Positions 5,083 to 8,387 of a stretch of DNA of 64,000 bases are shown here, piece after piece. Positions within the stretch are counted from its first letter, which is position 1. The number at the start of each line of letters is the position of its first letter. Below the pieces are notes generated by a model. That model worked only from the letters and a program-made list of their open reading frames with translations. It was not told where the DNA came from and did not search any database. The DNA comes from Erythrobacter sp. (GTDB lineage: Bacteria > Pseudomonadota > Alphaproteobacteria > Sphingomonadales > Sphingomonadaceae), in contig JASBTD010000036.1 of the NCBI GenBank assembly GCA_030148605.1, forward strand, positions 1 to 64,000, in the 5' to 3' direction. Position numbers and translations under genes: made by a program.

Positions 5083-5150
5083 TCTGCCTGAACGGCTGAA
5101 CGCATCCAAGTTCAGTGACAGTTCAACGCACCGCCGCTAAAGCGCGCTGC

Positions 5151-5816
5151 ATGGACAAGTTCAAACTCTTCACAAAACGCCCGCTGCGCACTGCGCTGGC
5201 GGGCGCTTTGCTGTGCGCAATGCCCGCTGCAACTGCGGTGCCCGCACCAGCCATCGCGCAGTCGGAGGCAGCCGACCTCGATCGTGCCGTAACTGCATTG
5301 CGCGCGATCTCGACCATGCGCGCCGATTTCTCGCAGACTGACCGCCAGGGCCAAGTGGCACAAGGCGTGATGACGCTGAAGCGCGGCGGCAAGATCCGCT
5401 TCGAATATGGCAGTGATGAGTCCCTGTTGATCATTTCCAACGGGCGCTCGCTTTACCTGGTCGATTATGAAGTGAACCAGGTCCAGCGCTGGCCGATCCG
5501 CAATTCACCATTGGGTGCATTGCTTGACCCCGATCGCGACATTTCGCGCTATGGCAAGCTGTTGCCAACCGGCAATCCGGACGTCGTGAGCATCGAAGTG
5601 CGCGACCCCAAGCGCCCCGAGTTCGGGGTGATGACCATGATCTTCGTGCGCGATGCGACAGCGCCGGGCGGATTGGAGCTCAACACCTGGGTTGCGCTCG
5701 ATTCGCAGAACCACCGCACCACGGTGCGCTTGCGGAATCACCGCTACGGAGTCGCGGTGGATGACAGCGCCTTTCGCTTCCGCGATCCGCGCCGTTCATC
5801 TCGTCGCCCGGGCTGA
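5151..5816 (+). CDS. lolA: Outer-membrane lipoprotein carrier protein LolA
   Basis: About 221 residues from the ATG at 5151. It has a clear Sec signal peptide (basic KRPLR, hydrophobic TALAGALLCAM, then an AQS-type cleavage site). The mature part matches LolA: ISTMRADFSQTDRQGQVAQGVMTLKRGGKIRFEY near the N-terminus and YLVDYEVNQVQRWPI in the middle. LolA carries lipoproteins across the periplasm from the LolCDE transporter to the outer membrane. An in-frame GTG at 5115 would add 12 residues before the signal peptide; I prefer 5151 because the signal peptide then starts normally. Several lipoprotein clients are encoded nearby. Confidence 0.9.
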   Translation: MDKFKLFTKRPLRTALAGALLCAMPAATAVPAPAIAQSEAADLDRAVTALRAISTMRADFSQTDRQGQVAQGVMTLKRGGKIRFEYGSDESLLIISNGRSLYLVDYEVNQVQRWPIRNSPLGALLDPDRDISRYGKLLPTGNPDVVSIEVRDPKRPEFGVMTMIFVRDATAPGGLELNTWVALDSQNHRTTVRLRNHRYGVAVDDSAFRFRDPRRSSRRPG

Positions 5817-5880
5817 ACGCTTCACCCTTATGCGGTTGTAAGAATGCGACAGAATGCCGCCCGCCATTCATTTACGTGAA

Positions 5881-6027
5881 AGGCGAAAGAGAGTAGTCTG
5901 CCTTGGCAAGTCGGCGGAAGGCGGGTTTCCCCCCTGTTGCCCCAACCTTCGCTGCAATGGCTTGCACCAGCGTGACGAACGCTCAATTGAAACCCTCGTG
6001 CCAATGCCCCCGGCGCGAGGGTTTTTT
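5881..6027 (+). ncRNA. Candidate structured small RNA ending in a terminator
   Basis: Between lolA and the convergent phosphatase gene there is no credible ORF, yet there are nested complementary segments. GCAAG 5906-5910 pairs with CTTGC 5961-5965, enclosing GAAGG 5917-5921 with CCTTC 5946-5950, enclosing a GGG/CCC pair. A second hairpin AGCGT-GACGA-ACGCT lies at 5969-5983, then a strong terminator at 5993-6027. A purine-rich 5' part, a long rod and an intrinsic terminator fit an independently transcribed small RNA; a 6S-like RNA is one possibility. I cannot match it to a named family by eye and the 5' end is a guess. It could also be a long lolA 3' UTR. Confidence 0.35.
5993..6027 (+). terminator. 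Strong rho-independent terminator
   Basis: CCCTCGTGCC at 5993-6002 pairs with GGCGCGAGGG at 6012-6021 (nine Watson-Crick pairs plus one G-U), with a nine-base loop, followed by TTTTTT at 6022-6027. It ends transcription on the plus strand after lolA or after the candidate small RNA. On the minus strand the stem is followed only by TTT, so it is probably one-directional. Confidence 0.85.
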
Positions 6028-6056: not shown

Positions 6057-7487
6057 TTACTTATCCCAGCCCAGCGCTTTCACGATGATGTCATAGATCA
6101 CATTCTGCTCGATCACGCCGCGCACACGTTCTGCACCCGGGCCATTCCCGTATAGCGCGACATCTTCGCCGCCGTGCGTTTCGCTGCTGGTGGGGATCGC
6201 CGCTTGCTGATGCGCATGAACGCCGGTTTCAGGGACAGGGCGCTCTGCCATGTTCGCGATCGCGCCCGGGCCATTTTGGTAACCCAGCGTGGTGTAAGGC
6301 TTGCCATCTGTGGCTGTAGTTGCCTGTGCCAGCTCTTCCGAGCCACCTTCGGGCGGCACGACCAGCCCCAGAATATCGTTCCCGCGGCGCGGATAGCCCG
6401 ACATAGTGAAAACATGGCTGTGATCGGCTGTAACAAGAATCAGCGTTTCGGAAGGATCGGTGTTGTCGATCGCATATTGGATCGCATTGGCAAACTCGAC
6501 CGCTTCTTCCAGCGCATATCCTGCTTGCCCAGCGTGGTGACCATGGTCGATTCGGCCCGATTCGACCATCAGGTAATAACCTTCCGGATCATCCTTCAGC
6601 CGCGCGATCGCCTGCTGCGTCATTTCAGTCAGCGTCGGCTCGGTCGAGTCTTCCGTCCGGTCAACGGTGTAGGTCATATGGCTGGGCGAAAAGAGGCCAA
6701 GCACCGGCTTGTCGGATGGCGCAGCGGCAAGCTCCGCCGATGTTGACACAAAGGTGCCGCCGGTTCGTGCGGCCCAGGCGGCGGGCAGATCTGCATCGGT
6801 CGCCAACCTGCGCCCGCCCTTGTCAGCGCCGAAGAATGCCGCCGTGCCGCCGCCCAGCGCGACATCGAAAGTGCTGTTGACCAGCTGCGTGGCGATATCG
6901 TCACACCCCTTGCCGCGCTGATCTTCAGGGATCCAGGCATCGGCTTCCCAGCCACGGTCAGGCGTGCGGGAATACACGCTCGCAGGAGTCGCGTGAGTAA
7001 TCCGCGCAGTTGAGACGATCCCGAGCGCGAGCCCGCGTTCCGTCGCCTGTTCACCCAGAATTGGCAGCGCATTCGCAAGCCCGCTCTGGCAATCGCCGCT
7101 GATGACATCGGGGCCAACGCCAATCGCGCCGATCTTGGTCTTCACGCCAGTGTGCATCGCGCTGGCTGTGCCTGCGCTGTCTGGCACCTGCGCATTGGTG
7201 TTATAGGTTTTCACCAGCGCCACATTGTCGAAATTCTCGAACGGCAGGACATACTCCTCACCGCTCTGGCCTTGTTTTTGCCCGGCATAGATACGCGCTG
7301 CGGTGATCGTCGAAATACCCATCCCGTCGCCGATGAACAGGATGACATTCTTCGCCTTGGGCTGCGGTGCCTCTACAGGCGTCGATGCGCTGGCCACTGA
7401 TCCTTGAGTAAAGGACCCGGGCGTGCAAGCGGCGAGCGGCATGGCAGCGGTGGCGGCAAGTACAATCGAACGGTGCAGGCGGATCAT
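6057..7487 (-). CDS. Alkaline phosphatase (PhoA family), predicted lipoprotein
   Basis: About 476 residues from the ATG at 7487, chosen because GAGGAG lies nine bases upstream and a lipoprotein signal begins there (lipobox LAAC, Cys21). The phosphatase signature is complete: FIGDGMG (metal Asp54), DSAGTASA with the nucleophilic Ser104, ESGRIDHGHHAG, TADHSH and ETHGGEDV. It hydrolyses phosphate monoesters in the periplasm. Most PhoA enzymes are soluble after Sec export; this one should be tethered to a membrane. It converges on the small-RNA terminator and is divergent from xthA. No PhoB box is obvious by eye in the short upstream gap. Confidence 0.92.
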   Translation of the reverse strand: MIRLHRSIVLAATAAMPLAACTPGSFTQGSVASASTPVEAPQPKAKNVILFIGDGMGISTITAARIYAGQKQGQSGEEYVLPFENFDNVALVKTYNTNAQVPDSAGTASAMHTGVKTKIGAIGVGPDVISGDCQSGLANALPILGEQATERGLALGIVSTARITHATPASVYSRTPDRGWEADAWIPEDQRGKGCDDIATQLVNSTFDVALGGGTAAFFGADKGGRRLATDADLPAAWAARTGGTFVSTSAELAAAPSDKPVLGLFSPSHMTYTVDRTEDSTEPTLTEMTQQAIARLKDDPEGYYLMVESGRIDHGHHAGQAGYALEEAVEFANAIQYAIDNTDPSETLILVTADHSHVFTMSGYPRRGNDILGLVVPPEGGSEELAQATTATDGKPYTTLGYQNGPGAIANMAERPVPETGVHAHQQAAIPTSSETHGGEDVALYGNGPGAERVRGVIEQNVIYDIIVKALGWDK

Positions 7488-7592
7488 CTCAGTCATCTCC
7501 TCTTTGGCAGATACCGCTATCGGGAAATAATGTGACCGCAAAGCGAAACCTGTGGCTGGACCGCGCACAATCCGGTCCCTAAGTGCTCTGGC

Positions 7593-8387
7593 ATGGTCTC
7601 TATCGCGACATGGAACATCAATTCAGTGCGGCTGCGGCTGCCGATCGTCGAACGCTTTCTGAAAGAGGAAGCGCCTGACGTGTTGTGTTTGCAGGAAATC
7701 AAGTGCCAGGAACACCAGTTTCCCTACGAACCGCTGGCAGCGCTCGGCTATCAACATGTCGCGGTGCATGGGCAAAAGGGTTATCACGGTGTGGCGACGG
7801 TCAGCCGCATCCCGCTGAAGGAATTCAGTCGGCATGACTGGCAGGCCAATGGCGAAGCGCGCCATGTGGGGGTGGAATTGCTTGGCCCGGGCCAGGGGAT
7901 GGTGCTGGAAAATGTCTATGTCCCGGCGGGTGGTGACGAACCCGATCGCGAAAAGAACCCCAAATTCGGGCAGAAGCTCGATTTCCTTGCCCGCATGACG
8001 GAATGGGCAGCCAAGATCGATCGCCCGACCATGATCGTGGGCGATTTCAACATCGCGCCGCTGGAAAGCGATGTGTGGAACCACAAGCAGTTGCTCAAAG
8101 TCGTCAGCCATACGCCGATCGAAGTGGAAACGCTTGAACGTTTCCAGCAAGCGCACCAATGGGTCGACCTCGGTCGCGAATTCATCCGCGATCCGGAGCG
8201 CTATTACAGCTGGTGGAGCTATCGCGCGAAGGACTGGAAAGCGAATGATCGCGGGCGCAGGCTCGACCATATGTGGGCCAGTCCAGAACTCGCGCGGCAA
8301 GCCAAGAGCCACCGGCTGCGCGAAGATGCGCGCGATTGGGAAAAGCCCAGCGACCATATCCCGCTGATCACGGAGTTTGCGCTCTGA
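7593..8387 (+). CDS. xthA: Exodeoxyribonuclease III (AP endonuclease)
   Basis: 264 residues of the exonuclease III / ExoA family of EEP nucleases. Visible motifs are ATWNINSVR at the N-terminus, LCLQEIKCQE (metal-binding Glu), GDFNIAP (Asp/Asn pair), RRLDHMWAS and the terminal SDHIPLI with the catalytic Asp-His. It cleaves DNA at abasic sites and removes 3' blocks in base-excision repair. Length is normal. Its stop codon overlaps or abuts the start of the ribA reading frame, so the two are likely co-transcribed. Confidence 0.95.
   Translation: MVSIATWNINSVRLRLPIVERFLKEEAPDVLCLQEIKCQEHQFPYEPLAALGYQHVAVHGQKGYHGVATVSRIPLKEFSRHDWQANGEARHVGVELLGPGQGMVLENVYVPAGGDEPDREKNPKFGQKLDFLARMTEWAAKIDRPTMIVGDFNIAPLESDVWNHKQLLKVVSHTPIEVETLERFQQAHQWVDLGREFIRDPERYYSWWSYRAKDWKANDRGRRLDHMWASPELARQAKSHRLREDARDWEKPSDHIPLITEFAL

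Follow-up and report, generated by a model that had tools for sequence, protein, structure and literature searches.

A conserved structured RNA gene behind lolA in Erythrobacter and its likely relation to the Caulobacter small RNA RusT

Described C-rich small RNAs and the locus in Erythrobacter

Caulobacter crescentus encodes RusT (CCNA_R0199), a small RNA of 118 nt that is bound by Hfq and lies between lolA and xth. In the available passages of its report, RusT presents four stem-loops and base-pairs to its target mRNAs through a conserved internal loop (C53). Iron chelation or zinc induces it, and NtrX binds its promoter, acting as a repressor. TonB-dependent receptors are the main targets, which also include OmpW and glnBA. 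Homologues are reported in Caulobacteraceae (PMC11005374). In GsrN, likewise from Caulobacter, the exposed 5' loop carries a row of six cytosines, which pair with G-rich mRNA leaders. The passages available from its report state that Erythrobacter litoralis has no evident gsrN-like gene (PMC5869019). PmaR is confined to Agrobacterium and a Rhizobium strain and has a spoon-like structure, according to excerpts of PMC6234868. No report of a small RNA behind lolA in sphingomonads was recognised in the full text of open-licence PMC papers. Such an RNA is absent from the available passages of PMC5869019, PMC6234868, PMC9731502, PMC7240162 and PMC9223101, and likewise from those of PMC7064620, PMC6970203, PMC5107571 and PMC7566282.

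The window analysed here is a stretch of 64,000 nucleotides from Erythrobacter sp. Its gene order is rpmG, lolA, the RNA, a convergent phosphatase gene and xth (Table 1). The interval 5907-6027 is a conserved structured RNA gene, which has its own terminator and exposes two C-rich loops. The start codon given for lolA (5151) is our choice within the ORF 5115-5816. For the gene at 7593..8387 we assume the name xth, on the basis of homology with the gene order of Caulobacter.

Table 1. Features of the RNA locus and its neighbours in the window
Feature	Coordinates	Strand	Basis and remarks
lolA, outer-membrane lipoprotein carrier	5151..5816	+	Pfam LolA 1.6e-19; ORF 5115-5816; upstream neighbour
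TTGT-N9-ACAG, imperfect inverted-repeat copy	5836..5852	+	candidate regulator site
Putative promoter region	5867..5899	+	TTCAT block 5867-5871; -10-like TAGTCT 5894-5899; intergenic alignment
Small RNA	5907..6027	+	~120 nt; start inferred; fold, conservation, covariation
Stem-loop 1	5907..5964	+	long 5' stem-loop; compensatory changes in 6/8 pairs of the outer helix
C-rich loop UUUCCCCCCUGUUGCC	5926..5941	+	proposed seed; CCCCCUGUU in 57/62 homologues
Hairpin AGCGUGACGAACGCU	5969..5983	+	AGCGU-GACGA-ACGCU, 5 bp, GACGA exposed; GCGUGACGAACGC in 53/62 homologues
Intrinsic terminator	5989..6027	+	7/14 pairs changed on both sides; 99.4% of cells paired; GCCCCCG in 58/62 homologues
Terminator stem, 14 bp	5989-6002/6012-6025	+	fold of the window sequence
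Second C-rich loop AAUGCCCCC	6003-6011	+	within the terminator
U-run, TTTTTT	6022-6027	+	end of the terminator
Alkaline phosphatase, convergent	6057..7568	-	Pfam Alk_phosphatase 9.6e-116; ORF
Exodeoxyribonuclease III-like gene (xth)	7593..8387	+	Pfam Exo_endo_phos 4.8e-28

Fold, conservation and promoter region

The initial annotation had described nested complementary segments, a 5-bp hairpin and a terminator with TTTTTT at 5881-6027. All of them are present in the sequence and in the fold. Its start at 5881 is about 26 nt too early, and the RNA probably begins near 5907. The C-run in the loop of stem-loop 1 is predicted to be unpaired with a value of 0.82-0.86 (accessibility calculation). 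Among dinucleotide shuffles, 5/200 fold as well as 5881-6027 (z -2.25) and 4/200 as well as 5907-6027 (z -2.67). Folding energy by itself is moderate evidence, and covariation is decisive. The terminator at 5989-6027 was not listed by the promoter and terminator scan, which accepts loops of up to 8; the loop here has 9. The same annotation held that no ORF explains the stretch. Mechanical ORFs of 29-80 aa do overlap the RNA locus on both strands, but none keeps its frame: the indels among the homologues are not multiples of three, and therefore no reading frame is conserved across the RNA.

By nucleotide search, 23 of 24 genus relatives carry the element. The lone miss is G015, a genome that is 82% complete, with a best match of just E=0.22. 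Nothing convincing appeared in the same search of 16 genomes from other genera. The order rpmG-lolA-RNA is present in all 23 relatives. Downstream of the RNA comes the phosphatase in 22/23 and xth in the remaining one (L022, in G006), where the phosphatase is absent at the locus and xth directly follows the RNA. Likewise, xth is the gene after the RNA in Caulobacter and in the relatives without a phosphatase there. The placement between lolA and the phosphatase, as annotated, holds in the window, and the phosphatase is an incidental neighbour.

In the intergenic alignment, GGTTTCCCCCCTGTTGCC and GCGTGACGAACGCT are near-invariant, and the terminator stem changes in step around an unchanged CCCCC loop. 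We analysed covariation, the check proposed at the outset, on a MAFFT alignment of 24 sequences that was not fitted to the structure. Changes on both sides occur in 15 of the 30 RNAalifold pairs (69 cells), and 97.1% of the cells pair. The observed covariation values were reached by 0/500 shuffles. When the structures were slid by 1-3 columns, 26-55% of the cells paired, and 1-6 pairs had changed on both sides. The 5-bp hairpin is invariant and so shows no covariation. Besides the three motifs counted in Table 1, GUGACGA is kept in 57/62 homologues. These 62 rows are the 65 matches minus three on the opposite strand (L098, L101, L112).

A covariance model (R1) was run order-wide on 147 genomes. 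It matched 63 of the 64 genomes of the window's family with E up to 2e-7; its training set includes two of these 63, the window's own (G000) and G019. In the 64th, G149, a less filtered scan recovered the RNA (E=1.6e-8). Outside this family, R1 matched three f2 genomes (G106, 1.8e-5; G032, 1.3e-4; G111, 6.8e-4) and gave a single f3 match (E=0.0037), 2.8 kb away from lolA. Most of the family matches (60/63) lie 71-285 nt past the LolA domain on the same strand. Three matches depart from this: the RNA is 456 nt past the domain in G143 and 920 nt in G199, and in G131 it lies elsewhere. Several species present GCGCTTCCGGTGCTCACGCAC-type stretches past the terminator (tails of L002, L008, L010 and L021), perhaps an intergenic repeat.

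The stretch from about 5867 to 5906 probably reads as a promoter, with a putative RNA start near 5907. A sigma-70 consensus scan of the window found no promoter. The TTCAT block is present in 53 of the 62 upstream stretches of homologues. The RNA and xth have jointly moved away from lolA in G131 (L122, G131:C2:59300-61400). There, an unrelated open frame precedes the RNA, and the xth that follows it is 57% identical to the window's. A consensus-like promoter, TTGAAT-N17-TATATT, stands directly upstream of the RNA. In G199, another gene separates lolA from the RNA, and the TTCAT block stays with the RNA. The conserved block and these two arrangements argue for a promoter of the RNA's own. An independently terminated regulatory RNA, as the initial annotation had proposed, is well supported by the covariation, the family-wide conservation and the loci apart from lolA.

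Upstream, the exact 17-bp inverted repeat TTGT-N9-ACAA occurs in 19/62 homologue regions and, by reading, before rusT in 4/4 Caulobacter loci. It was spotted by eye, after the fact. The NtrX sites given in the available passages of PMC9223101 are CAAN2-5TTG and GCAN9TGC, and the repeat does not fit these consensus sites. We treat it as a lead on a candidate regulator site and not as a known NtrX site.

Candidate targets and proposed function

The pattern AACAGGGGR has 16 sites in the window's genome and its reversed control 13, so that it is not enriched genome-wide. Six of the 16 sites are preceded by C, one being the RNA locus itself. Of the other five CAACAGGGGR sites, four lie directly before a start codon. 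They precede the genes of two exported proteins, L170 (11 bp) and L162, of a DUF2497 protein and of an SH3-domain protein (Pfam). We take the DUF2497 protein to be PopZ (popZ-like L168). None of the 10 own sites without the preceding C lies at a plausible start. At two of these ten, L164 and L176, a suitably spaced GTG is nevertheless present within a long open frame.

By a loose start criterion, 14/32 target sites in the window's genome, G002, G003 and G019 count as lying at starts, against 5/33 control sites, among the matches listed (Fisher p 0.015). The target sites were 5 from the own genome (R-restricted), 7 from G019, 12 from G003 and at least 8 from G002, with G006, G012 and G021 absent. 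The control sites come just from G019 (26) and G003 (7), and AAACAGGGG sites were left out. We judge that 11 of the 14 target sites, and 0 of the 5 controls, resemble genuine gene starts, again among the matches listed. Shuffled leaders gave duplexes as strong in 0/300 cases for L170, 3/300 for L162, 11/300 for the popZ-like L168 and 76/300 for L166. L166 is therefore a weak target. Homologues of L170 lack the exact 9-mer; several keep G-tracts with 6-8 complementary letters. In six leaders of these homologues (L259, L262, L265-L267 and L269), GGGTCGC or GGGTCAC stands some 25-40 nt ahead of a ribosome-binding site rich in G; it may be a promoter or a further regulatory element.

For 22 genes of TonB-dependent receptors, the longest seed complement has a mean of 5.1, against 4.7 in 44 window genes. 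A clear excess was not seen among these 22 genes, and the duplex energies were not discriminating. One target site in G003 is located at glnB, the gene of a PII protein. It is of interest because RusT represses glnBA, as stated in the available passages on RusT. The complement at glnB reaches at least 10 bp in 6/16 genomes of the genus and just 6 in the window's genome. A TGGCAC-N5-TTGC-like sequence is present upstream of glnB in the genus (L270-L285). We take it to resemble the sigma-54 promoter consensus. From their position, the 4/5 start-codon sites complementary to the seed are suggestive as targets.

We consider it likely that this small RNA is transcribed independently and acts in trans by base pairing, as the counterpart of RusT in sphingomonads, and that it blocks G-rich ribosome-binding sites. 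It would be transcribed from its own promoter behind lolA, starting near 5907 and stopping at its own terminator. Hfq or a similar chaperone would bind it. Through the C-rich loop in stem-loop 1 (CCCCCCUGUUG), the RNA would pair with ribosome-binding sites rich in G (CAACAGGGG...). This pairing would block the translation of envelope-related mRNAs, many of them for exported proteins, and the RNA probably silences envelope-protein messages. The signal, presumably iron or envelope stress, may be relayed by a two-component system, for example NtrYX; NtrX is named here by analogy with RusT. Against a RusT-like reading stands the seed, which is CCCCCCUGUUG here and AUCCCCUCCC in RusT.

Relation to RusT, alternative readings and known RNA families

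An Rfam search had been recommended at the outset. It returned nothing at gathering score in the 64-kb window, and 14 related or Caulobacter loci gave no match over gathering either. At E up to 10 the locus has four weak matches, namely Leu_leader, mir-7948, anti-hemB and Methylosinus-1, and each scores far under the cut-off of its family.

The locus corresponds to that of RusT in the gene order of the window, in the direct succession lolA-RNA-xth of G006 and in the Caulobacter loci. In four Caulobacter genomes, the RNA at this place has the loop ATCCTATCCCCTCCC and is followed by xth. An exposed C-rich seed loop is likewise shared: CCCCCUGUU is the form that most homologues keep (57/62), in letters that differ from those of RusT. 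On the Caulobacter rusT loci, R1 gave no match on the sense strand with E under 5.6. A broader model (R2) gave E=0.13 in L120 and nothing in L117-L119, which is not significant. R2 was built from 38 rows, among them L091, which is on the wrong strand, and the marginal L132. The R2 score of L132 is circular because L132 belongs to the training set, and it is left out of the count that follows. In 63 loci, R2 has 14 matches outside the training set at E of 0.02 or less. All but one (L049) lie within 300 nt after lolA on the same strand.

The RusT seed core TCCCCTCC and its near variants, defined as TCCCC(C/T)?TCC or TCCCTCCCC, occur in 15 of 65 regions after lolA (4 from Caulobacter, 11 others). 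The reverse strand has 0, and mononucleotide shuffles predict 1.85. G111 combines the seed core with a GCGUGACGAACGC-type hairpin (GCGTGACGAGCG). A C-run plus terminator behind lolA was found in 15/32 genomes of the order's other families, with 0/32 on the reverse strand. The same arrangement is present in 4/4 Caulobacter genomes and in 2/29 single representatives of the class's other families; this survey covers 29 of 30 representatives, with L054 left out. The order's other families present differing C-rich RNA-like elements behind lolA (L132-L156). Examples linked to lolA are CCTTCCCCTCCCGGAG in f6 and TTTCCCCTCCCCCTCCC in f8, and most of the f5 genomes inspected are without one. The TTTCCCCCTGTT pattern matches in four other families (L071-L074) were rejected as chance, as they adjoin neither lolA nor xth (tblastn).

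From gene order and seed, the RNA is likely orthologous to RusT; the profile statistics fall short of significance. The wider proposal, which we hold at about even chances, makes RusT one branch of an ancient alphaproteobacterial small RNA locus at lolA, C-rich and ended by a terminator, across Sphingomonadales families and Caulobacterales. The drift of the seed from CCCCUCCC to CCCCCUGUU would have retuned which envelope mRNAs are silenced. A newly evolved sphingomonad RNA at the same spot is the less probable reading. It would be C-rich without being an orthologue, and may sequester a protein or block ribosome-binding sites of a different regulon. The non-significant covariance match to rusT (E=0.13), the different seed and hairpins and the TonB-receptor signal that was not seen are all consistent with it. 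The identical gene neighbourhood goes against it. So do the graded seeds, the lolA-linked RNAs that R2 detects in other families (13/14) and G111, where seed and hairpin stand together.

The remaining alternatives concern what kind of element this is. One would place it in the lolA 3' UTR, as a stable terminator and a processed fragment without its own promoter that protects or ends the lolA mRNA. The spacing of 71-285 nt after the LolA domain in 60/63 family matches suits this reading, as does the sigma-70 scan of the window, which found no consensus promoter. Nevertheless, we regard it as unlikely: the loop sequences are conserved more than a terminator requires, the TTCAT block is kept upstream (53/62), and in G131 and G199 the RNA is separate from lolA, with promoter-like sequence in front. 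Slightly less probable still is a decoy or carrier whose invariant GACGA hairpin holds an RNA-binding protein and whose C-rich loops serve stability and not mRNA pairing. This would agree with the frequent GUGACGA, whose pairs do not vary, and with target support that is suggestive. However, the C-rich loops are conserved as well as the hairpin (57/62 and 58/62), and the G-rich complements are located at gene starts. The 6S-like RNA suggested initially, which would bind RNA polymerase, is comparable in length and likewise has a long stem interrupted by an internal bulge. We give it almost no weight. The genome has its 6S RNA on another contig (G000:C22:5520-5690, L035; 56.2 bits, over the Rfam cut-off), the locus has no 6S match to E=10, and its C-rich loops and three-hairpin layout are unlike 6S.

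If the base-pairing RNA that we favour is real, nearly every sampled genome of a large environmental family has an unlisted RNA gene. It would make a ready system in which to test how sphingomonads control their envelope post-transcriptionally. RusT would join a much wider family, with the evolution of its seed traceable against a fixed gene order. The covariance model could annotate the RNA gene in genomes that now show unannotated space.

Compared with the known RNAs, 6S RNA (RF00013) has just the length and the long stem in common with this one, and the same genome carries a separate 6S gene. The 6C RNA of actinobacteria (RF01066) has two C-rich hairpin loops, one of them in or near the terminator. 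This layout is alike here, whereas phylum and locus are unrelated; RF01066 gave no match over gathering and is not among the four locus matches to E=10. GsrN has a similar C-rich exposed loop. Its locus, in the available passages of its report, lies near general-stress regulators and has a sigma-EcfG promoter. The flanks here are rpmG, lolA, the phosphatase and xth, not a phyR/ecfG neighbourhood. A promoter of the GGAAC...CGTT type, the sigma-EcfG motif, was not seen by eye in the intergenic alignment. PmaR of Agrobacterium also has an accessible C-rich loop and differs in its spoon-like structure (excerpts of PMC6234868). The likeness to RusT extends further. Going by the available passages on RusT, both RNAs are encoded between lolA and xth in the orientation of lolA, have about 120 nt and an intrinsic terminator, and fold into stem-loops with an exposed, conserved C-rich loop. 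Relatives of both carry the TTGT-N9-ACAA repeat upstream. The differences are in detail. The seed is AUCCUAUCCCCUCCC in RusT and UUUCCCCCCUGUUG in the Erythrobacter RNA, and RusT has four stem-loops in those passages against three here. The GCGUGACGAACGC hairpin is not in RusT, and the terminator here presents a C-rich loop.
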